Positions 1,928-15,060 of a stretch of DNA of 22,214 nt are shown here, piece after piece. Within the stretch, counting starts at the first letter, position 1. Every line of letters starts with the position of its first letter. The position numbers and the translations under genes are program-made. The notes under the pieces are model-generated. The model had not been told where the DNA came from. It did no database searches and saw only the letters and a list, made by a program, of their open reading frames with translations. Source of the DNA: a virus; IMG/VR virus record IMGVR_UViG_3300025887_000159, positions 1 through 22,214 of that record; one strand, written 5' to 3'.

Positions 1928-4438
1928 ATGAAATTTTACACATCTATCTCACGTTATGGCAATAATCTTCTCTATAGAGGTTACAGTAACGGCAAAAAAA
2001 TTCAAACAAAAATTAAGTACAAACCGACATTCTATGTCAATACACCTAATCCTACACCATTTAAAGCATTAGATGGAACTAAAGTTGCGCCTATCAAATT
2101 TGAAGATATGCGTGAAGCTAAAGATTGGCTTGCGTCAAACCAACATACTGCAGGCCGACTGATTTACGGTAACAACAAACATATTCCAGCATATATTAAT
2201 GAAGCATTCCCTGGCAATATTAAGTTTGATCGTAACCTTATTAACGTAACAACAATTGATATTGAAGTACAATCAGATGCTGGCTTTCCTGAACCAGAAC
2301 ATGCTGCTCATGAAGTAACAGCAATCTGTATGAAAAACAATATCGATAAGACCTTTTACGTCTGGGGTCTTAAAGACTATGACGTAGAAAAAACATACAT
2401 GACAGAAAATCGTGTAGTATACGAAAAGTGTATGACCGAATCAGAACTCCTATTAAAATTCATTGCTCATTGGTCTTTACCATCTCAATGCCCAGATGTT
2501 ATTACTGGTTGGAATTCACGATTCTTTGATATTCCATACCTTGTTAATCGTATCATTAAAATCCATGGTGAAGAGTTCGTTCGTAGATTATCTCCCTGGG
2601 GTTTGATCGATCGTCGTGATGTCAATACAATGCAGCGTAAACAGTGCGCTTATGAAATTCAAGGTATCGCTCAAATGGATTACCTTGATCTATTTCGTAA
2701 ATTTGGTTACTCATATGGTCCACAAGAATCATACAAGCTTGACAATATTGCTCACGTAGTACTTGGAGAACGTAAGCTTTCTTATGAAGAACATGGTAAC
2801 CTTCATACTCTTTACATACACGATCATCAAAAGTTTATTGACTACAATATTAAAGACGTAGACTTGGTAGATCGTTTCGAAGATAAGATGGGTCTTATTA
2901 CATTAGCTCTTACTATGGCTTATCGTGGTGGTGTTAACTATGGCGATGTCATGGGTACAACTGCCATATGGGATTCTATTATCTTTCGTAATCTACATGC
3001 AAATAACGTCATCGTTCCATTCGGCGAAGAAAAGTTTAAATCGCCATATCCAGGTGGCTTTGTAAAAGATCCACATGTTGGAATGCACGAATGGGTTGTT
3101 TCTTTTGATTTGAACTCACTGTATCCATCAATCATTATGCAAAATAACATGTCTCCTGAAACTATTATCAATGGTAAAGTTGCTAATGTTACTGTTGATA
3201 GTCTTCTAAGTGGCGATGTTAAACCTAAGCTTGAAGCTAATGAATGTGCTTCAGCATCTGGTCAGTATTTTACTACTGATGCACAAGGTATCCTACCAAA
3301 AATTATTGATGAAATGTATAGTGAACGTGTTGTAATCAAACGCGCAATGATCAATGGTCAAAAGGAACTTGAAAAGGTTGACAAAAACAACAAACAAGAA
3401 TTGTATCGAGTTCAACGCGATATTAACATCGCTGAAAATCAACAAATGTCTATTAAGATTCTTCTAAACAGTCTTTATGGCGCACTTGGTAACAAATACT
3501 TTAGATTCTTTGATCAACGTATTGCTGAAGGTATTACTCTATCTGGTCAGCTTACTATTCGCTGGGCTGAAAAGGCTATCAACGAATATCTCAATAAGAT
3601 TCTTAAAACCAAAAAAGACTATGTTATTGCTATCGATACAGATTCTGTTTACGTAGTACTCGATGATCTTGTTAAAGCTGTTAGTCCTAAGAATCCATTG
3701 GAATTTATCGATACTGTTTGTAAGGAAAAGCTTGAAACTGTTCTTGAAGAAAGCTATGCTGATTTGTTTAAAGTCATGGGTGGTATCGAAAACAGAATGG
3801 TCATGAAACGTGAAGCAATTGCTGATCGTGGTATCTGGACAGCAAAGAAAAGGTATATCCTAAACGTTCTTGATAATGAAGGTGTTCGATATGCTGAACC
3901 AAAGCTTAAAATTATGGGTATTGAAGCTATTAAGTCTTCTACACCAGCTCCATGTCGTACAGCTCTTAAGCAAATGTTTAGGACAATAATCAGTGGTTCT
4001 GAATTAAAGGTTCAACAAGATATTGAAACCTTTAGAACGTACTTTAAAACTCTGCCACCTGATGAGATTGCCTTTCCACGAGGTATAACTAACCTTACTA
4101 ACTATATGGATAATCAAACAATATACAAAAAAGGTACACCAATTCATGCTCGTGGTAGTATCATGTATAACAAATTACTTGTAGACAAATCGCTTACTAA
4201 GCAATATAACAAGATCCAAAATGGTGAAAAGATTAAGTTTATCTACCTTCGAACACCTAATCACATAAAGGAAAATGTAGTATCCTTTCTTGATTATTTG
4301 CCTGAAGAGTTTGGTCTACATCGCTACATTGATTATGACACTCAGTTTGATAAAACATTCTTAGGTGTTATTGATCCAATACTTCAAGCTGTTGGTTGGA
4401 ACTCAAAAGACATAGCAACGCTTGATGAATTCTTTTAA
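1928..4438 (+). CDS. 43: Family B DNA polymerase with 3'-5' exonuclease (836 aa), T4 gp43 homologue
   Basis: The phage replicative DNA polymerase. The N-terminal proofreading domain shows Exo I (D-I-E in TTIDIEVQ, about residue 110), Exo II (GWNSRFFDIPYL, about 195) and Exo III (Y-N-I-K-D-V-D, about 310). The polymerase domain shows motif A (DLNSLYPSII, about 395), motif B (KILLNSLYGALGNKYF) and motif C (AIDTDSVYV), with all expected acidic residues present. Length is slightly shorter than T4 gp43 (898 aa). It has its own early promoter; the mRNA leader is only about 20 bases and I see no good Shine-Dalgarno site before ATG 1928, so translation may depend on other signals, and T4 gene 43 is known to be autoregulated at translation. 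I could not find a T4-like operator hairpin here. No intein or split gene is seen. Confidence 0.97.
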   Translation: MKFYTSISRYGNNLLYRGYSNGKKIQTKIKYKPTFYVNTPNPTPFKALDGTKVAPIKFEDMREAKDWLASNQHTAGRLIYGNNKHIPAYINEAFPGNIKFDRNLINVTTIDIEVQSDAGFPEPEHAAHEVTAICMKNNIDKTFYVWGLKDYDVEKTYMTENRVVYEKCMTESELLLKFIAHWSLPSQCPDVITGWNSRFFDIPYLVNRIIKIHGEEFVRRLSPWGLIDRRDVNTMQRKQCAYEIQGIAQMDYLDLFRKFGYSYGPQESYKLDNIAHVVLGERKLSYEEHGNLHTLYIHDHQKFIDYNIKDVDLVDRFEDKMGLITLALTMAYRGGVNYGDVMGTTAIWDSIIFRNLHANNVIVPFGEEKFKSPYPGGFVKDPHVGMHEWVVSFDLNSLYPSIIMQNNMSPETIINGKVANVTVDSLLSGDVKPKLEANECASASGQYFTTDAQGILPKIIDEMYSERVVIKRAMINGQKELEKVDKNNKQELYRVQRDINIAENQQMSIKILLNSLYGALGNKYFRFFDQRIAEGITLSGQLTIRWAEKAINEYLNKILKTKKDYVIAIDTDSVYVVLDDLVKAVSPKNPLEFIDTVCKEKLETVLEESYADLFKVMGGIENRMVMKREAIADRGIWTAKKRYILNVLDNEGVRYAEPKLKIMGIEAIKSSTPAPCRTALKQMFRTIISGSELKVQQDIETFRTYFKTLPPDEIAFPRGITNLTNYMDNQTIYKKGTPIHARGSIMYNKLLVDKSLTKQYNKIQNGEKIKFIYLRTPNHIKENVVSFLDYLPEEFGLHRYIDYDTQFDKTFLGVIDPILQAVGWNSKDIATLDEFF

Positions 4439-7448: not shown

Positions 7449-7757
7449 TTGGCAAAATTCGATGAAAACAAAACTCCATTTGGCTTAGTCCCGCCTGAAG
7501 CATTAGCTCAAGTAGCTGATGTTCTAGGCTTTGGTGCTGAAAAGTATGGTGTTAATAATTGGCGAATCGATGGTGATTCAACAAGCTGGATCAGAACATA
7601 TTCATCTGTACAGCGTCATTTAAACTCGTGGCATAGTGGTGAAGATATAGATCCTGAATCTGGTATGTCTCACTTAGCTCATGCCGCAACTCAAATCATG
7701 ATTCTTATGACTCATGCAATCGAACATCCTGAAGTAGACGATAGGTATAGCAAATGA
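7449..7757 (+). CDS. dATP/dGTP diphosphohydrolase N-terminal-domain-like protein (102 aa)
   Basis: P-F-G-L-V-P-P-E-A-L near the N-terminus, then F-G-A-E-K-Y-G-x-x-N-W-R, then the helices S-x-Q-R-H-L-N-S-W and SHLAHAATQIMIL match the phage family annotated as dATP/dGTP diphosphohydrolase N-terminal domain, which is related to MazG-type helical NTP pyrophosphohydrolases. It starts with TTG; AGGTGA at 7437-7442 at six bases supports this, and no ATG is available at the N-terminus. Its stop overlaps the start of the dCMP hydroxymethylase gene as ATGA, so a job in supplying dNMP substrate is plausible. Substrate is not known. Confidence 0.7.
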   Translation: MAKFDENKTPFGLVPPEALAQVADVLGFGAEKYGVNNWRIDGDSTSWIRTYSSVQRHLNSWHSGEDIDPESGMSHLAHAATQIMILMTHAIEHPEVDDRYSK

Positions 7758-8407
7758 ACATAGCAGATATTAGAAACCATTTTATTAAAGAACTCGCAAA
7801 TGAAAACTATACTACTGATCGTAATGGTAGTAAGACTATTGAGTTAATTGGTGCATCGTTTATCGCAAATGAAGATGCTATATTTGGCACTCCAAATCGT
7901 GATTACATTGAAACTGAACTTGAATGGTATGATTCAGAATCTACAAATGTAAATGACATATACGATGATTATCGAGAAGTTCCAGCTGCATGGTTAATGA
8001 CTGCAAATGCTCATGGCGAAATTAATTCGAATTATGGTCATCTAATCTATAGTGCTAAGTATCATACTCAGTATGATCAAGTTCTTTGTGAGTTGACCAA
8101 TAATCCTGATTCTCGTAGAGCTTCAATGATCTATACTCGTCCATCTATTTGGATTGAGTATTGCGAAAATGGTAAGAATGATTTTATCTGTACCAACGCA
8201 GTCACATATTATATTCGTGATAATGCTTTACATTGTGTTGTTCAAATGCGTTCTAATGATGTTATCTTTGGATATCGAAATGATTATGCTTGGCAAGACT
8301 ATGTTCTTCGTAACTTAGCAAACGATCTTTCTATTGATGTTGGTGATATGCATTGGCAAGTCCAAAATCTTCACGTATATGAAAAACACTTTGATTTGGT
8401 GAAATAA
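7754..8407 (+). CDS. 42: dCMP hydroxymethylase (217 aa), T4 gp42 homologue
   Basis: Converts dCMP and methylene-tetrahydrofolate to 5-hydroxymethyl-dCMP, the precursor of hydroxymethylcytosine DNA. Many blocks match T4 gp42 as I remember it: KTIELIGASF, GEINSNYG, NPDSRRASMIYTRPS, the catalytic Cys146 in DFICTNAV, and RSNDVIFGYRNDYAW at 166-180. D177 occupies the position that is Asn in thymidylate synthase and Asp in dCMP-specific enzymes, which argues for dCMP rather than dUMP. It is about 29 residues shorter than T4 gp42 (246 aa), ending just after LHVYEKHF. It is flanked by a pyrophosphohydrolase-like gene and dCMP deaminase with one- and four-base overlaps. Confidence 0.93.
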   Translation: MNIADIRNHFIKELANENYTTDRNGSKTIELIGASFIANEDAIFGTPNRDYIETELEWYDSESTNVNDIYDDYREVPAAWLMTANAHGEINSNYGHLIYSAKYHTQYDQVLCELTNNPDSRRASMIYTRPSIWIEYCENGKNDFICTNAVTYYIRDNALHCVVQMRSNDVIFGYRNDYAWQDYVLRNLANDLSIDVGDMHWQVQNLHVYEKHFDLVK

Positions 8408-8868
8408 TGAGTTGGGATATTTCAAAATCATATAAATGGGATAAACGTTATATTGAGTTAGCAGCTCATATTGCCGAATGGTCAAAAGATCCATCGCGTA
8501 AAATAGGATCAGTTGCTGTAGGAAATAAAGGGCAAGTGTTAGCGCAAGGTTATAATGGGTTTCCACGTGGTATTGCTGATGACGAATCTACATATATAAA
8601 CCGAGTAACTAAGTATGAACGTGTAGTACACGCTGAAATGAACTGTATATATAATGCAACGTATAATGGAACTTCTCTTGATGGAGCTACGTTATACATA
8701 CATGGACTACCAGTTTGTTCAGAATGCGCTAAGGGTATTATACAAGTTGGTATTAAACGTGTTGTAACTAAAGAGATTGATGATTCTATGCCAGAACGAT
8801 GGGTACAATCTAATAAATTAACTAAAATGTTATTTGAAGAAGCAGGAGTACAATATGACTTTATCTAA
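8407..8868 (+). CDS. cd: Deoxycytidylate (dCMP) deaminase (153 aa)
   Basis: Zinc enzyme that turns dCMP into dUMP for thymidylate synthesis. H75-A-E77-M-N-C and C104-S-E-C107 give the zinc ligands and the proton-shuttling Glu. The N-terminal DPSRKIGSVAV and GYNGFPRG segments are typical of the dCMP deaminase group. Shorter than T4 Cd (193 aa), close to the usual bacterial size. It competes with the hydroxymethylase for dCMP and would feed ThyX. Start overlaps the upstream stop (TAATG), with GGTGA just before. Confidence 0.93.
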   Translation: MSWDISKSYKWDKRYIELAAHIAEWSKDPSRKIGSVAVGNKGQVLAQGYNGFPRGIADDESTYINRVTKYERVVHAEMNCIYNATYNGTSLDGATLYIHGLPVCSECAKGIIQVGIKRVVTKEIDDSMPERWVQSNKLTKMLFEEAGVQYDFI

Positions 8869-9259: not shown

Positions 9260-9336
9260 GCGCTCTTAGCTCAGCTGGATAGAGCATCGGCCTTCTAAGC
9301 CGAGGGTCTCAGGTTCGAATCCTGAAGGGCGCACCA
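9260..9336 (+). tRNA. tRNA-Arg (anticodon UCU), CCA encoded
   Basis: A full 77-base cloverleaf. The acceptor stem pairs 9260-9266 with 9326-9332 (one G-T pair), the D arm has AGCTCAGCTGGATAGAGC, the anticodon stem TCGGC/GCCGA closes a loop with anticodon TCT, and the T arm contains GGTTCGAAT. ACCA is encoded at 9333-9336. It reads AGA (and AGG by wobble) codons, which are common in this AT-rich phage; T4 also carries a tRNA-Arg(UCU). It lies six bases after the acidic protein gene, so it is probably cut from that operon's transcript. Confidence 0.97.
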
Positions 9337-9678: not shown

Positions 9679-9837
9679 GTGAGTAGAAAGAATGGTATAT
9701 TATTATTAAGAACTTTATTATTGATATGGTTAGCAGTTTCAGTAAAAAACACTGATGATCTATATGGCGTGAGATATAGTATGAGAAGTTTTGAAGAATG
9801 TAAAAAGGTAGTTGATTATGAAACCAGTGAAAAATAA
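9679..9837 (+). CDS. Small single-span membrane or exported protein (52 aa), unknown
   Basis: GTG 9679 follows AGGAGA at 9669-9674, which is better placed than the TTG at 9652. The N-terminus is basic (S-R-K-N) and then has a hydrophobic run of Leu, Ile and Val (about residues 6-22), like a signal anchor. The remainder is short and polar with one Cys. It overlaps the next membrane protein gene by 20 bases. No family recognised; start codon choice is moderately sure. Confidence 0.5.
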   Translation: MSRKNGILLLRTLLLIWLAVSVKNTDDLYGVRYSMRSFEECKKVVDYETSEK

Positions 9838-10066
9838 GAAAACGTTAGATTGGTACGTAAAGTGGGTAGCTTCAGTCTTTGTTCTAGCCGCTATGTCTAT
9901 TAGAGGCGTTGATGGTCTACAATTTGTAGATCTATCTTTGTCTGCTATTGGAATTATGTTATGGTTATGGGTGTCTATTCTCTGGCAGGATAGAGCTCTT
10001 ATATTACTTAATGGTATTGGATTGATATTTTTATTGAATAATATTACATCTTCCCTTTACATTTGA
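9818..10066 (+). CDS. Small multi-span membrane protein (82 aa), unknown
   Basis: ATG 9818 has AAAGG at 9804-9808 nine bases upstream. Basic N-terminus (MKPVKNKKTLDW) followed by three hydrophobic segments at about residues 13-29, 38-54 and 60-76. Proteins with this KKTLDWYVKW opening and size recur in marine viruses as uncharacterised membrane proteins. The 3' end contains the -35 box (10056-10061) of the inositol/modification operon promoter. Confidence 0.65.
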   Translation: MKPVKNKKTLDWYVKWVASVFVLAAMSIRGVDGLQFVDLSLSAIGIMLWLWVSILWQDRALILLNGIGLIFLLNNITSSLYI

Positions 10067-10084
10067 TCAAAAGTGTGATATAAT
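10056..10084 (+). promoter_or_regulatory. Early sigma-70 promoter for the 10-15 kb modification operon
   Basis: TTTACA at 10056-10061, a 17-base spacer and TATAAT at 10079-10084 with extended TG. The -35 box lies inside the last codons of the preceding membrane protein gene. The leader to ATG 10176 is about 85 bases, the longest in the window, and contains GTGAG (10111-10115) and CTCAC (10141-10145), which could pair weakly. Confidence 0.85.
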
Positions 10085-10175
10085 ATACCTTATAACTACT
10101 TAAACAAACGGTGAGCTACTCTGATTAAAACCCAGTCAACCTCACATTAAAAAACTGAAATAAAGGGAAACATAA

Positions 10176-11456
10176 ATGTCTAAAATTAATATCGCAATTG
10201 CCGGTGTTGGCAACTGTTCATCTGCACTGGTTCAAGGTGTTCAATACTATAACGAAAATCCAGAAGATACAATTGGCCTAATGTTTCAAGACATTGGTGG
10301 TTATTCAGCTCCGAATTTTAACTTCGTGGTTGGCTTTGACGTTGATTCTCGTAAAGTTGGTCAACGGCTAAATAAAGCAATTTACGCAGAACCAAATTGT
10401 AACATGGAAGTATTTCCTCCAGGTCATGACATGAGCTGTATTGCTAATGAGTCGATTGTATATCGTTCGCCTACGTTGGATGGTATCGCGCCTCACATGC
10501 ATGATCTAGATAAAGCTATTACGTTTTTGGAAGATACAGAAACAACTCCAATTACTGCTTCTGAATACCGTGATATTCTTAAAGCTCGTAATGTTGATGT
10601 CCTACTTAACTATATGCCAGTAGGTTCAGAAGAAGCTGCCAGATGGCACATTGAAAATGCTATTAGATCCGGTGTTCATGTTGTTAACTGTATGCCAACT
10701 TATATTTCTACTAAAGATGCTATGGAATTAGAACAGCTTGCTATCGAACATGGTGTAACAATTGTTGGTTCTGATATGCGTTCTGATTATGGTGCGTCTC
10801 GTTTGTCTGAAGTCCTTCAAGGATCTATTATGGATTCTGGTTTATTGGTAACTCAGCATATTCAAGAAAATAAAGCTTGTGGCACAACTCAAGGTGATAT
10901 GCGTCGTACAGGTCGTACTGCTAATACAGACTTCCTAAACATGGCAACTAAAGATCGTTTGAAGAACAAACATATCTCTAAAGAAAATGTACTAAATGGC
11001 CAAGCCGCAGTACGTGGTAAGGATATTGCTGGTCTTACAATGTATGCTGGTCCATCACTTACAGTTTTCCAAAAACCAGGCGATGAGTACATCGGATCAG
11101 ATAACAAGATTGCTAATATTGACATGGTGTTTTGGGGTTGGGCTGGAGCTCGTTATGAATTGACTGCTAGATTATCTGTTCAAGATTCTCCAAATAGTGC
11201 TGGTATCGTTTACGATGCTATTCGATTCGTTAAGGTTGCTTCTGAAATGGGTATTGTTGGTTACTTACGTGGTCCATCAGCATGGTCACAAAAGACTCCA
11301 CCACAGCAACTTAAAACTGCTGATTCTAAGTTTGAATGTGACGCATTAGCTCGTAGAGTTCTAACTGATATTACTCGTCCACAACTTAAAGAAAATAATC
11401 CTAAAGTCGAAAACCTAACTTATACATTCCAATCAGGTGAAAATGACTATGCCTAA
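10176..11456 (+). CDS. ino1: Inositol-3-phosphate synthase-like protein (426 aa)
   Basis: The family makes 1D-myo-inositol 3-phosphate from glucose 6-phosphate with NAD. The Rossmann start IAGVGNCSSALVQG, then NFVVGFDVDSRKVG, LLNYMPVGSEEA, IVGSDMRSDYGAS, NTDFLNM and V-Q-D-S-P-N-S-A-G match the actinobacterial/archaeal type of Ino1. Length is slightly above those (about 365-390 aa). The segment between YAGPS and the DSPNSAG motif, which carries part of the active site, differs from what I recall of Mycobacterium Ino1, including Arg where a Lys stands just before DSPNS, so substrate or product could be altered. AAAGGGA precedes the ATG. First gene of the five-gene operon; the next gene overlaps it by eight bases. 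Family call is strong; activity is not proven. Confidence 0.88.
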   Translation: MSKINIAIAGVGNCSSALVQGVQYYNENPEDTIGLMFQDIGGYSAPNFNFVVGFDVDSRKVGQRLNKAIYAEPNCNMEVFPPGHDMSCIANESIVYRSPTLDGIAPHMHDLDKAITFLEDTETTPITASEYRDILKARNVDVLLNYMPVGSEEAARWHIENAIRSGVHVVNCMPTYISTKDAMELEQLAIEHGVTIVGSDMRSDYGASRLSEVLQGSIMDSGLLVTQHIQENKACGTTQGDMRRTGRTANTDFLNMATKDRLKNKHISKENVLNGQAAVRGKDIAGLTMYAGPSLTVFQKPGDEYIGSDNKIANIDMVFWGWAGARYELTARLSVQDSPNSAGIVYDAIRFVKVASEMGIVGYLRGPSAWSQKTPPQQLKTADSKFECDALARRVLTDITRPQLKENNPKVENLTYTFQSGENDYA

Positions 11457-11826
11457 GCAGTTAATTAATACCTTTGATATTGATGGTGTAATCTATTTTG
11501 GCGAGGACGTAACTGGTGTGCGTCCTGGTCGGGCTGATGTCATCATCACTGGTCGTTCTTACCAACAAGAACTAGAAACAATTAGTATGCTAAAATCTAG
11601 GCAAATTCATAACCACGTTATGTTTAATCCACTAAAACGAAGCGATGACGCATATAGTCGAAAAGCTTCAGGTATTCATAAAGCTAAATGTATCACAAAG
11701 CTTAAAGAATCATTTAAGATTGGACTACACTTTGAGGATGACCCTATTCAAATTGAAGAAATCAAAAAGGTTCATCCAGACTTAAACGTAATTCATTTAG
11801 TGCGAGAGGGCTTAATTGGCTACTAG
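11449..11826 (+). CDS. HAD-superfamily phosphatase-like protein (125 aa)
   Basis: All four HAD motifs are visible: D10-I-D12-G-V (nucleophile and acid/base Asp), T34 in I-I-T-G-R-S, K78 or K80 in IHKAKC, and E96-D-D98 in GLHFEDDP. It has no large cap domain, like small HAD phosphatases and polynucleotide phosphatase-like enzymes. The start at ATG 11449 has AGGTGA at 11435-11440; GTG 11437 and ATG 11443 are too close to that site. Being coupled to the inositol phosphate synthase gene suggests it may dephosphorylate its product or a later phosphorylated intermediate; that is inference. Confidence 0.75.
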   Translation: MPKQLINTFDIDGVIYFGEDVTGVRPGRADVIITGRSYQQELETISMLKSRQIHNHVMFNPLKRSDDAYSRKASGIHKAKCITKLKESFKIGLHFEDDPIQIEEIKKVHPDLNVIHLVREGLIGY

Positions 11827-12880
11827 TTCTTACAATTATGATTGGTGGTCATTTGATAAAGACCTTATGCTCGACTTTAATCATTTCTTAAAAAAGATTA
11901 ACGATCGTGCTGCTATCAAACAAGGTTTTACTAATGATCAATACGAAAATTTAAATCGTCATGGTGTAATTGATCATGGCTTAGGGGAAAACGTAGAGTA
12001 CTTTCATCCAACAATTACATTAGATGATCGTATGAGATTTATTGGTACTGAAATTGCAACATCTAGAATGAGCGATACTAATATTGTGGGTAACACTATC
12101 ATATCTCACTTCTATGGAGCTCGTGGCGTTCACTGGGTAGTATCAGGCAAGGAAGGAACCTTTGTTGATTTTGATCGTATTGCTGATGGCGATGCTGATT
12201 ATATTAAGTCTCTACGTAATAACGTTGATAAAGCTATAAGAAATAAACAACCTATCTGGGGAACGACTGAGTTACATACGTCTATTCAAACATCTGGTAG
12301 AAACTATTGTCGTAAAAAGTACAATGAACCTGATCGTAAGTTTCATCCAGTTGATGTAAGCGAATGGGTTGCTTCTTTTAGAGACAGCAAAATCATTGAA
12401 GGTATGCTAGCGGCTAAAGATCTTTTTGAAGTGTTTACTTTGTTGAAAACTTTACCAGGAGTTGGCGAATACTATGGTTTCCATTGCGCTACTTCTACGT
12501 CGGTTTTGCCTCAAATGAAATACCATCATGACCAAAGATTCGTAGCCCCAGGACCAGGAGCAGTTTATACGATAAAATTACTATGGCCAGATGTTCCTAA
12601 TAAATATCTAGCTGAAGCAATTTACTTTATAAGAGAAAACGCTGCTGAAATTGGTTTAACTAAGGATGTTATCTTTCATGAATCGGGCTACAATATAGAA
12701 TTAGACAATGGCTCTTATCTTTTTAATGAGCAACAGAATGGATTAAAGTATTATGGTACTGAGGTTCTATGTTGTCAGTATGGTGTATATCTACAAATAA
12801 GAGATGATGAAAAGGCATGTGGAAGACGCCAAGTAGCAAGAGCTAAAGCACCACAAAATAATTTAAGTGCATTCTTTTAA
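11816..12880 (+). CDS. HhH protein like alpha-glutamyl/putrescinyl-thymine pyrophosphorylase / 5-hmdU DNA kinase family (354 aa)
   Basis: Residues 208-250 carry LLKTLPGVGEYYGFH (helix-hairpin-helix of the DNA glycosylase type), then a short insertion and F-V-A-P-G-P-G-A-V-Y. The pair LPGxGxF/Y and GPGA is the signature I associate with the aGPT-PPlase and 5-hmdU DNA kinase families, which act on 5-hydroxymethylpyrimidines already in phage DNA. Upstream, residues 65-110 (ITLDDRMRFIGTEIATSRMSD) match the early helical region of these proteins. No glycosylase Asp or P-loop is obvious. Start is TTG 11816 with GAGG at 11806-11809; it overlaps the HAD gene by 11 bases. The C-terminus ends in LSAFF. 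Alternative: a catalytically different HhH DNA-binding protein. Confidence 0.55.
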   Translation: MATSSYNYDWWSFDKDLMLDFNHFLKKINDRAAIKQGFTNDQYENLNRHGVIDHGLGENVEYFHPTITLDDRMRFIGTEIATSRMSDTNIVGNTIISHFYGARGVHWVVSGKEGTFVDFDRIADGDADYIKSLRNNVDKAIRNKQPIWGTTELHTSIQTSGRNYCRKKYNEPDRKFHPVDVSEWVASFRDSKIIEGMLAAKDLFEVFTLLKTLPGVGEYYGFHCATSTSVLPQMKYHHDQRFVAPGPGAVYTIKLLWPDVPNKYLAEAIYFIRENAAEIGLTKDVIFHESGYNIELDNGSYLFNEQQNGLKYYGTEVLCCQYGVYLQIRDDEKACGRRQVARAKAPQNNLSAFF

Positions 12881-13867
12881 ATGAAAAATATAATTAACTG
12901 TCCATTTATACCTATCGCAAAAAGGCATGCTTCTCATAGAGGAGCTCAAGGCGTTATATATGGCGATATGATTAAGGAAAAATATGGAAACTGTACCGTT
13001 AACTATGGCGGAGAAATTACTGAGCATAATGATTACGATAATCTATGGGTTTACCACGGTAGTGACTATAGCGGTGGTCTTAATATGTTTGGTGGCGTTT
13101 ATGGTTTTCCATATGTTGCTAACACTGTTAACTTTTCTAAATTCAAAGGCCAAGTCTATTCTATAGGTATGGACTTTCCACCATATCACGAAATGATTAA
13201 AAACAAATTGGCTGCCGCTAAACGCGATGTTCAGCCAGAATGGTATAACGTTGATCTTGTTAATCTCGAAAGAATGTTTAATACAGCAATCAGAATTGAT
13301 GTTCCTAATCAGACTCGTAATGTTATTATTGGTGATAGTCATGCGATATGTATGTATAGACCAGGATGGACAGTTAATAGTATTCCATTTAAAACTCTTA
13401 ATGGCGCTTTAAACGATGGATTTAAATCGTTTATTCCTGATGAGTATGATGAACTACATTGTTATTTTGGTAATATCGATGTTCGTCACCACTTAATTAG
13501 ATTAGAAGCAAGTGTAGAAGAATTGGCTGATAGATATATAACTGAAGCTAGTAAATACGATGCTAAAATATACGAGTTATTACCTATTGAACATGAATCA
13601 CGAAAGCTTCCGCAGTCTGGTTACTATAAAGGTCAACCATTCTGGGGTTCATGGCAACAACGTACTGATATTCGTAATGAGTTTAATGACTATATTGAAA
13701 AACAGTATGGAATCATAAGATGGACTGATAAGTTACTAAATAAAGCAGGAGAACTTGACTTTAAGTATATGGAAAAGCCAAAGTCAATACATCTTTCTAG
13801 AGAGTTCTATCCATATTGGAATGGAATCGAAACTATAAATAATAATACACTTGAGGAATTTTTCTAA
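12881..13867 (+). CDS. SGNH/GDSL-hydrolase-like protein (328 aa)
   Basis: Residues 148-154 read V-I-I-G-D-S-H (block I, nucleophile Ser153), residues 195-204 read YFGNIDVRHH (block III-like G-N with D-R-H), and H304 in SIHL fits the final catalytic His. That is the layout of SGNH esterase-like enzymes, which remove or transfer acyl groups on sugars. The N-terminal 140 residues are Gly/Tyr-rich and unassigned. There is no signal peptide, so it is cytoplasmic. The ATG directly follows the upstream TAA with no clear ribosome site, so it is probably coupled. In this operon it may act on a sugar-like or inositol decoration. Confidence 0.6.
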   Translation: MKNIINCPFIPIAKRHASHRGAQGVIYGDMIKEKYGNCTVNYGGEITEHNDYDNLWVYHGSDYSGGLNMFGGVYGFPYVANTVNFSKFKGQVYSIGMDFPPYHEMIKNKLAAAKRDVQPEWYNVDLVNLERMFNTAIRIDVPNQTRNVIIGDSHAICMYRPGWTVNSIPFKTLNGALNDGFKSFIPDEYDELHCYFGNIDVRHHLIRLEASVEELADRYITEASKYDAKIYELLPIEHESRKLPQSGYYKGQPFWGSWQQRTDIRNEFNDYIEKQYGIIRWTDKLLNKAGELDFKYMEKPKSIHLSREFYPYWNGIETINNNTLEEFF

Positions 13868-13868
13868 T

Positions 13869-15059
13869 ATGACAACCTGGGCAAGCATCGTTCCATTGAT
13901 TGGTGGAGAAACCATCGCAATGGAGAATATCTTTAAAACAAGACCAGAATACTTTCTTACTTTTGACGGCTTTCAAGCTAATGAAGAACATTTAAGAAAC
14001 TACTATAACAATGAGATACCTTACTTAAACCTCTCAGGGGGAGTCAAACACCCGTCTAACGTAGATGTAGTTAATACTATATGTCCATGTGCTGGTCTAA
14101 GTTCACTCAGCCCATCTGCTTCAAGTAACAATCCAGCAAATGATTGGATGGTAAAATCAGCCGAATACGTTCTAAGTGAAATGTCTCCAAAAGTTTTTTG
14201 GGGAGAAAACGCTCCAAGACTTGCTTCTAAGATGGGAGAGCCTGTAGTAAAAAGATTACGTAAACTAGCTGAAGCTAATGGTTATACATTTAGTATCTTT
14301 AAAACCAAATCATTATTACATGGTCTAAGTCAAGTAAGAGATCGTACGTTCTACTTCTTCTGGAAAGGCGATACAGTGCCATTGTTTGAATATATCAATA
14401 TTCAACCAACAATGATTGCTGATGATATTAGAGCTGTAGTAAACGATAAAAATGATCCAATGTCTCAAATTTTGTGTAATGATAAAAAGCCATCTGATGA
14501 TCCATATTACAAATTTATCTTAGACAGTATCGAGGGTGGGATTACTCATCAAGAGTTTGCTGCTAAGATTACTAAGACAATAAATGTGCAAGATTATATT
14601 GAAGAACACACAACCTATAACAAGGTTGCTGAGTGGATGCGAGAACATGGATTTGATAATGTTGCTCGTAAATGCGATAGAGCGTATCATAAGCTCAAAG
14701 CCGGTGGTAACATTATGCGTAAAGGTGTTGAAATTCCTAAGGATAAGATTGGAGCATTCGTAGGTCATATGCCAACAAGTATAGCGCATCCAGATGAAGA
14801 TAGATTCTTAACAGTACGAGAAGCTATGTCGTTGATGAAACTACCAACTGATTATCAGATGGTCAATGCCAAAAGATCACTTAATCATATGTGTCAAAAC
14901 GTACCAGTAACTACAGCTGAGCATCCGGCAGCCATGGTTAAAAAATACTTAGAAGGCAAGTTAGATTTTGTTGATACTAAGTTCATGGTACAAGATAATA
15001 AGAAAAGAAATTATAAATGTGAAAAAAACAGTTTACAATTGACTGAATTTATGTTATAA
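13869..15059 (+). CDS. DNA C5-cytosine methyltransferase-like protein with altered AdoMet motif (396 aa)
   Basis: Motif IV is T-I-C72-P73-C74-A-G-L-S-S-L, motif VI is W-G-E113-N114-A-P-R, motif VIII is Q155-V-R157-D-R159, and near the C-terminus DRFLTVREAMSLMKLP fits motif IX, followed by QNVPV-like motif X. The catalytic PC and EN pairs are intact. Motif I, usually F-A-G-x-G-G, reads V-P-L-I-G12-G13-E-T-I-A, so AdoMet binding may be changed. The region 165-330 would be the target-recognition domain. ATG 13869 with GAGGA at 13853-13857 is preferred to TTG 13851. It may methylate cytosine or, since the phage probably has hmC, act on the hydroxymethyl group instead. The next promoter is embedded in its last codons. 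Confidence 0.8.
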   Translation: MTTWASIVPLIGGETIAMENIFKTRPEYFLTFDGFQANEEHLRNYYNNEIPYLNLSGGVKHPSNVDVVNTICPCAGLSSLSPSASSNNPANDWMVKSAEYVLSEMSPKVFWGENAPRLASKMGEPVVKRLRKLAEANGYTFSIFKTKSLLHGLSQVRDRTFYFFWKGDTVPLFEYINIQPTMIADDIRAVVNDKNDPMSQILCNDKKPSDDPYYKFILDSIEGGITHQEFAAKITKTINVQDYIEEHTTYNKVAEWMREHGFDNVARKCDRAYHKLKAGGNIMRKGVEIPKDKIGAFVGHMPTSIAHPDEDRFLTVREAMSLMKLPTDYQMVNAKRSLNHMCQNVPVTTAEHPAAMVKKYLEGKLDFVDTKFMVQDNKKRNYKCEKNSLQLTEFML

Positions 15060-15060
15060 T
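15032..15060 (+). promoter_or_regulatory. Early sigma-70 promoter for bS21-uvsX, inside the previous gene's end
   Basis: TTTACA at 15032-15037, a 17-base spacer and TATAAT at 15055-15060 with extended TG. The stop codon TAA (15057-15059) of the methyltransferase-like gene lies inside the -10 box. The bS21 ATG follows at 15093. Confidence 0.85.

Follow-up and report, generated by a model that had tools for sequence, protein, structure and literature searches.

Known DNA decorations and the locus compared with them

Hypermodification of phage DNA is already known in several chemistries, and these were compared with one locus in a 22,214-nucleotide stretch of viral DNA (IMG/VR record IMGVR_UViG_3300025887_000159, positions 1 to 22,214; hereafter the window). 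The window is a piece of a marine T4-like myovirus genome (it carries gp43, UvsX, gp41, HSP20, GroES-like and ThyX genes) with an operon of about 5 kb and five genes, encoding a myo-inositol-phosphate synthase (MIPS), a HAD phosphatase, a helix-hairpin-helix (HhH) protein, an SGNH/GDSL-fold protein and a C5-cytosine-methyltransferase-like (MTase-like) protein. This cassette is likely to place an inositol-derived group on 5-hydroxymethylcytosine (hmC) of the phage's own DNA, product and linkage being predicted.

The closest described system is the glucosylation of hmC in T4, which the locus resembles in its T4-type dCMP hydroxymethylase, in its predicted decoration of hmC after replication and in a writer predicted to be clamp-linked (T4 alpha-glucosyltransferase was found experimentally to bind the clamp gp45; PMC13216743), but the cassette has no glycosyltransferase or nucleotide-sugar gene and instead has an inositol supply, HhH and SGNH. 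Arabinosylation in RB69 and other Mosigvirus phages likewise uses a modular sugar-supply cluster near a thymidylate-synthase-type enzyme that modifies dCMP, but that enzyme is a 5-hydroxy-dCMP synthase (PMC13390438; about 26% identical to the window's enzyme) and acts with arabinosyltransferases. Thymidine hypermodification (5-hmdU kinase with ADDT/PUGT; phages M6, ViI and PaMx11) relies on an HhH-fold transferase for 5-(activated)methyl pyrimidines in DNA, to which the window's HhH protein may correspond, and MIPS-HAD pairs are found beside its ADDT and P-loop kinase sets; the base predicted here is cytosine, SGNH stands in place of the P-loop kinase, and the donor would be inositol rather than an amino acid. 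TET-associated glycosyltransferase (TAGT) fills the same genomic slot in relatives of the window and a TET/JBP gene lies in some MIPS loci, but the window's hmC would come from dCMP hydroxymethylase and not from oxidation of 5-methylcytosine. In 7-deazaguanine modification (QueC/QueE/TGT-like genes; Menderavirus), MIPS-HAD adjoins Que genes in 10 loci, with a different base and a different writer. A literature search with incomplete coverage of base hypermodification returned no report of inositol in DNA, phage DNA included; it is the inositol route that would be new.

A conserved cassette in an exchangeable slot

The genes of the pathway lie in the window as follows.

7754..8407, + strand: dCMP hydroxymethylase (Thymidylat_synt, 4e-17), which would supply 5-hm-dCMP, the anchor base
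8407..8868, + strand: dCMP deaminase (dCMP_cyt_deam_1, 6.8e-20), nucleotide pool, the constant neighbour
10176..11456, + strand: MIPS, the small-molecule enzyme
11437 (GTG) or 11443 (ATG)..11826, + strand: capless HAD phosphatase (PNKP-like), proposed inositol-phosphate phosphatase
11816..12880, + strand: HhH protein of the HMUDK_hel family, 354 aa, proposed writer
12881..13867, + strand: SGNH/GDSL-fold protein, 328 aa, predicted DNA-acting partner with an extra N-terminal domain
13851 (TTG) or 13869 (ATG)..15059, + strand: C5-cytosine-MTase-like protein, predicted hmC-associated partner (start probably ATG 13869)

An earlier sequence-only reading of this DNA had described five tightly packed genes of these families downstream of a dCMP hydroxymethylase gene and proposed that they form one hypermodification module. 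The packing was as described, each open reading frame overlapping or abutting the next; the MIPS-like, HAD-like, HhH and C5-MTase-like families were recovered by profile matches and SGNH by fold, and the upstream hydroxymethylase was recognized by its relationship to T4 gp42 and a diagnostic Asp. Purifying selection on each of the five genes is strong (dN/dS 0.04-0.2).

The same reading had held that the genes of a true module should be conserved together, and with gp42 homologues. Four IMG/VR scans, the window and a few named phages were combined into 104 non-redundant groups. MIPS, HAD, HhH and SGNH genes were contiguous in 57 of the 104 groups, all five genes were present together in 50, and the cassette was usually directly downstream of dCMP hydroxymethylase and dCMP deaminase, as had been expected. 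The four-gene core of the module stood, but the MTase-like gene did not prove to be part of it: it accompanies alternative decoration sets in syntenic T4-like loci, is missing from some inositol-type loci (L174, L091, L190) and was not detected in 44RR-type phages.

Syntenic relatives have other gene sets for decorating hmC in this slot, which is bounded by dCMP deaminase and the MTase-like gene.

L157: DNA alpha-glucosyltransferase (PF11440, 3.7e-24), epimerase and cytidylyltransferase-like gene
L118 and L164: TAGT (PF20691; 1e-18 and 4e-19); also L142, L159 and L163 by similarity
L162: UDP-galactopyranose mutase (PF03275, 3e-53), epimerase, cytidylyltransferase-like gene and a 369-aa protein
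L149, L156 and L152: genes similar to the L162 set
L160: glycosyltransferase-like set

A small hydrophobic protein (x84, 9812-10066) is conserved in many relatives after dCMP deaminase and ahead of the decoration slot, regardless of the set that occupies the slot.

Aeromonas phages made the same swap independently. In phiAS4, motA is followed by UDP-galactopyranose mutase, a relative of the 369-aa protein (3e-39) and SGNH; in the cultured phage 44RR2.8t, it is followed by a Na+/sugar symporter and an SGNH-HhH fusion, and UP87 is arranged alike. Together with the slot replacement, this swap is the strongest argument that HhH (with SGNH) is the hmC writer and that MIPS-HAD, or the symporter, supplies the group that is written.

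Clamp-binding-like C-terminal tails divide the operon in the same way. They were counted over distinct tails from related sequences, so that the following counts are not independent.

12857..12877, + strand: NNLSAFF tail of HhH, 36 of 41 tails fit, disordered in the model
13844..13864, + strand: NTLEEFF tail of SGNH, 48 of 52 tails fit, disordered in the model
15033..15056, + strand: LQLTEFML tail of the MTase-like protein, 42 of 46 tails fit
4415..4435, + strand: ATLDEFF tail of DNA polymerase gp43 (reference), 27 of 27 tails fit

No such tail was found among the distinct tails of MIPS (37), HAD (39), dCMP hydroxymethylase (26), dCMP deaminase (57), UvsX (68) or gp41 (39). Since HhH, SGNH and the MTase-like protein are tailed and MIPS and HAD are not, the operon falls into two supply enzymes and, by prediction, three proteins that travel with the replication fork. 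The alternative slot writers are tailed as well (TAGT, NSLEEFF; alpha-glucosyltransferase, NNLEDFF), as are 8 of the 13 TET/JBP-like proteins encoded in other MIPS loci. The tail endings change in phages that are further removed, some to QLKLF-like sequences. HhH and SGNH of L353, L358, L359 and L363 end in SLF/QLKLF-like sequences, which we take to resemble bacterial clamp-binding motifs, and these tails look as if adapted to another clamp.

Divergent MIPS sequences were used in a further scan, which yielded 61 non-redundant phage loci. A DNA-modification set was found within 5 kb of MIPS in 59 of the 61, the two exceptions being contigs cut at MIPS. The sets comprised HhH and/or SGNH (31), ADDT-like and/or P-loop kinase genes (18, several with a TET/JBP oxygenase) and QueC/QueE-type genes (10). 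That three base chemistries share one supply pair would be difficult to account for if inositol did not become part of the DNA. The sequence-only suggestion of a perhaps inositol-derived group on hmC thus gained support, and this reading fits best because slot replacement, the clamp-like tails and the link of MIPS to modification sets all point to it; the chemistry itself is predicted. A wider proposal, tentative and hardly short of evenly balanced, is that inositol is a general phage DNA decoration, with a portable MIPS-HAD pair feeding writers on 5-hmC, 5-hmU/T and 7-deazaguanine, and HhH-SGNH coupling it in the hmC branch without a nucleotide-activated donor.

Two groups of these loci were noted for their own sake. 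MIPS (with HAD in most) lies beside QueC, QueE, GTP cyclohydrolase and TGT-like genes in Menderavirus and relatives (L284, L289, L291, L309, L311, L314, L323, L325, L331, L343), where inositol-linked 7-deazaguanine in DNA is possible. MIPS-HAD lies beside ADDT-like, P-loop kinase and Tet_JBP oxygenase genes in L294, L299, L300, L302, L303, L305-L308 and L317, where an inositol-linked modified thymidine, made after replication, is possible.

The base and the proteins of the cassette

The window's dCMP hydroxymethylase was 50.7% identical to T4 gp42 over 100% of its length, and the Asn-to-Asp specificity switch was present in 40 of 40 aligned sequences. Because the enzyme is of the T4 type and not the RB69 type and carries this switch, the modified base is, on sequence evidence, 5-hmC and not 5-hydroxycytosine or 5-hydroxymethyluracil. 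A 5-hydroxycytosine base, as in RB69, was considered and ruled out by the identity to T4 gp42 compared with Mosigvirus-type enzymes.

The HhH protein contains the HMUDK helical domain (PF18723, 1.4e-8, above cutoff). No P-loop family match and no GxxxxGK[ST] motif was found in its 354 residues, and the HMUDK kinase domain is therefore lacking. Its AlphaFold model (predicted local distance difference test, pLDDT, 89) was compared with the PDB by Foldseek; the nearest structures were 8z2n/8z2m (5-phosphomethyl-dU glycinyltransferase), at a weak likeness (prob 0.85, E 0.28, template modelling scores 0.37/0.43), followed by OGG1-type base-flipping glycosylases. The protein had been read as aGPT-PPlase/hmdU-kinase-like; the helical domain was confirmed and the kinase label was dropped, and since a kinase domain is lacking and the closest fold is that of a transferase, "transferase" appears to be the better label. 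Profile-profile comparison of the HhH family gave no significant match to Cr30 ADDT, nor to the two unknown families of the pyridoxal phosphate (PLP)-type set described below, and on sequence grounds no shared origin with ADDT is proposed. The HhH and SGNH profiles gave no match when searched against PDB sequences.

The SGNH protein had no family match in profile searches. Its model (pLDDT 87.5) matched GDSL/SGNH hydrolases in Foldseek (prob 1.00, E 1.5e-5) over the C-terminal ~190 residues, placing it in the superfamily by fold. A weak Pfam match to T4 beta-glucosyltransferase (E 0.021) was ruled out by this fold. Among the conserved blocks, GDSH (Ser153), the Gly and Asp of GNID and His304 are invariant, Asn198 is Ser in two members, and the Asp of DxxH is not conserved. 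The protein is 34.7% identical to the N-terminal half of the 44RR fusion (ORF233c). SGNH may activate hmC, because no P-loop kinase occurs in the hmC-type set and SGNH takes the position that the kinase has beside ADDT in thymidine-type sets; or else it may tailor the product. The latter alternative, an acyltransferase or esterase acting on the hmC-attached group outside the coupling reaction, is quite possible, at somewhat less than even weight: fold relatives are O-acetylesterases and GDSL lipases, and SGNH also occurs with galactofuranose-type (L005, L075) and PLP-type sets (L271, L272, L275, L280), but it is near-obligate with HhH (25 of 26 MIPS-HhH loci), is fused to HhH in 44RR, and lacks the conserved DxxH Asp usual in such enzymes. 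The PLP-type sets form a third kind of hmC decoration set, made up of two unknown families (~390 and 328 aa), a PLP (PALP-like) enzyme and SGNH, mostly adjoining dCMP hydroxymethylase (L271:4731-9095, L272:5912-9032, L275:7974-10967, L279:4772-8693, L280:1063-4880, L069:3-3103); it looks like an amino-acid-derived modification.

The MTase-like protein matched DNA_methylase (PF00145, 4.5e-15) from profile position 57 on, with the motif I-III region unmatched. An ordinary S-adenosylmethionine (SAM)-dependent C5-methyltransferase, marking residual cytosines while the rest of the cassette decorates hmC, is rather unlikely. The catalytic Cys, ENAP and QxRxR are invariant in 23 sequences and a distant similarity to HaeIII/HhaI methyltransferases agrees with such an enzyme, but motif I, which would bind SAM, reads PLIGG instead of FxGxGG, Pfam and PDB matches begin only after motif III, and the gene co-occurs with dCMP hydroxymethylase (in T4-like loci, XG4 and S-TIM5), where C5 would already be occupied. 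The protein is better regarded as a separable, general hmC partner outside the inositol transfer; it probably binds or covalently engages hmC or C, in a role that is uncertain. In Pseudoalteromonas phage XG4 (L006:100-6580), an unannotated cluster contains dCMP hydroxymethylase, HAD, an NTP-transferase/kinase fusion, two glycosyltransferase-like genes and the MTase-like gene, and was assigned as another hmC sugar system.

The supply enzyme MIPS matched Inos-1-P_synth (5.6e-7), mycothiol_INO1 (TIGR03450, 4e-57) and M. tuberculosis Ino1 (PDB 1gr0, 5.4e-48, residues 3-381 aligned), and the active-site lysines of KxxxK, NK, RFVK and QKTPP are conserved, as in the synthases. HAD matched phrog_415 (phosphatase part of polynucleotide kinase, 9e-7) and carries the HAD phosphatase motifs FDIDGV (DxDGV), ITGR, HKAK and FEDDP. 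It adjoins MIPS in 49 of the 61 phage MIPS loci, and also in Cr30 and Moby, a co-occurrence from which it is predicted to be an inositol-phosphate phosphatase. Beside the symporter and fusion genes of 44RR, no HAD homologue was found; that HAD follows MIPS and not this pair is as expected if the substrate is free inositol. In 19 of the 61 loci there are FkbM-type methyltransferases, which suggest O-methylation of a cyclitol product; in L185:11639-12403, L207:9765-10466 and L266:9044-9784 (L266 by start sequence only) such a gene lies inside the cassette.

That the group on hmC is not inositol itself, and instead another cyclitol, a phosphodiester-joined inositol-phosphate or a ring-opened product, is unlikely. 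MIPS homologues do include a five-membered-cyclitol-phosphate synthase (PDB 6k96, 5.6e-25), the FkbM genes imply further processing, and the fold relative of HhH uses phosphomethyl-type intermediates; against this, the window's MIPS is much more similar to M. tuberculosis Ino1, HAD beside MIPS argues for a dephosphorylated product, and the symporter that 44RR has where MIPS-HAD would stand agrees with a solute that is free and common. That MIPS and HAD serve auxiliary metabolism (inositol for lipids, osmolyte or redox) and share a transcript with a modification set of another donor is very unlikely: earlier authors counted phage MIPS among bacteria-like genes and gave it no role (PMC9025141), but diverse MIPS loci adjoin modification sets of three base chemistries, a glycosylation set fills the slot when MIPS-HAD-HhH-SGNH is absent, and no nucleotide-sugar or other donor gene is left in the window's set.

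Three further features flank the operon.

9260-9336: single tRNA-Arg (TCT) gene, shortly upstream of the operon
10056..10084, + strand: promoter-like site before the operon, TTTACA-N17-TATAAT with a TG-extended -10, 11/12 consensus
15032..15060, + strand: second promoter-like site, TG extended, 11/12 consensus, closing the operon before the bS21-like and UvsX genes

The two promoter-like sites were the top two of 15 and of equal quality; as a class, such sites were not enriched (15 in the window, 22.4 in shuffled sequence). The promoter proposed before the operon was thus found as a consensus-like site, and transcription from 10056-10084 is presumed rather than supported by the class as a whole.

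Proposed route and its meaning

In the proposed route, dCMP hydroxymethylase would make 5-hm-dCMP for incorporation into DNA, as its family and residues indicate. MIPS would convert glucose-6-phosphate to inositol-phosphate and HAD would strip the phosphate. The HhH protein, predicted to be clamp-tethered and sharing its fold family with phage enzymes that, on a flipped pyrimidine, replace an activated 5-CH2-O group, would couple inositol to hmC behind the fork. SGNH, its near-obligate partner and likewise predicted to be clamp-tethered, would activate hmC or finish the product, and the MTase-like protein, the third with a predicted tether, would go with hmC whatever is attached; both roles are uncertain. 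Where relatives have an FkbM-type O-methyltransferase, the cyclitol would be methylated as well. The modification probably shields the DNA from host nucleases, as glucosyl-hmC does in T4.

Several points weigh against inositol on hmC. The 44RR symporter is closest to the galactose/glucose transporter vSGLT and could thus bring in a hexose. SGNH is not inositol-specific, being found also beside UDP-galactopyranose mutase and in the PLP-enzyme set, no P-loop kinase was seen in the hmC-type set, and the likeness of HhH to the glycinyltransferase is weak. The 59 of 61 MIPS loci are a raw count, uncorrected for how often modification genes lie within 5 kb of any phage gene. The whole IMG/VR record is this 22-kb fragment, and further pathway genes may lie outside it. 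We know of no carrier phage whose nucleosides have been analysed.

Petrov et al. 2010 (PMC2993671) left open what, if anything, is added to hmC in T4 relatives with gene 42 and without glucosyltransferase (RB69, JS98 and Aeromonas phages 44RR, 31 and 25). The cassette leads to the prediction that 44RR and 31 carry an inositol-type group and that phage 25/phiAS4-type phages carry a galactofuranose-type group. RB69 has since been found to carry arabinose. Because inositol and glucose are isomers, inositol-hmC and glucosyl-hmC would be equal in mass, and a measurement of mass alone could mistake the first for the second. In phage modification clusters, a C-terminal clamp tail is an easy mark by which to tell enzymes that act on DNA from those that supply the group. 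If true, the proposal would add a chemically new DNA decoration, with a writer chemistry that works without nucleotide-sugar donors, and inositol would be the first cyclitol found in DNA.

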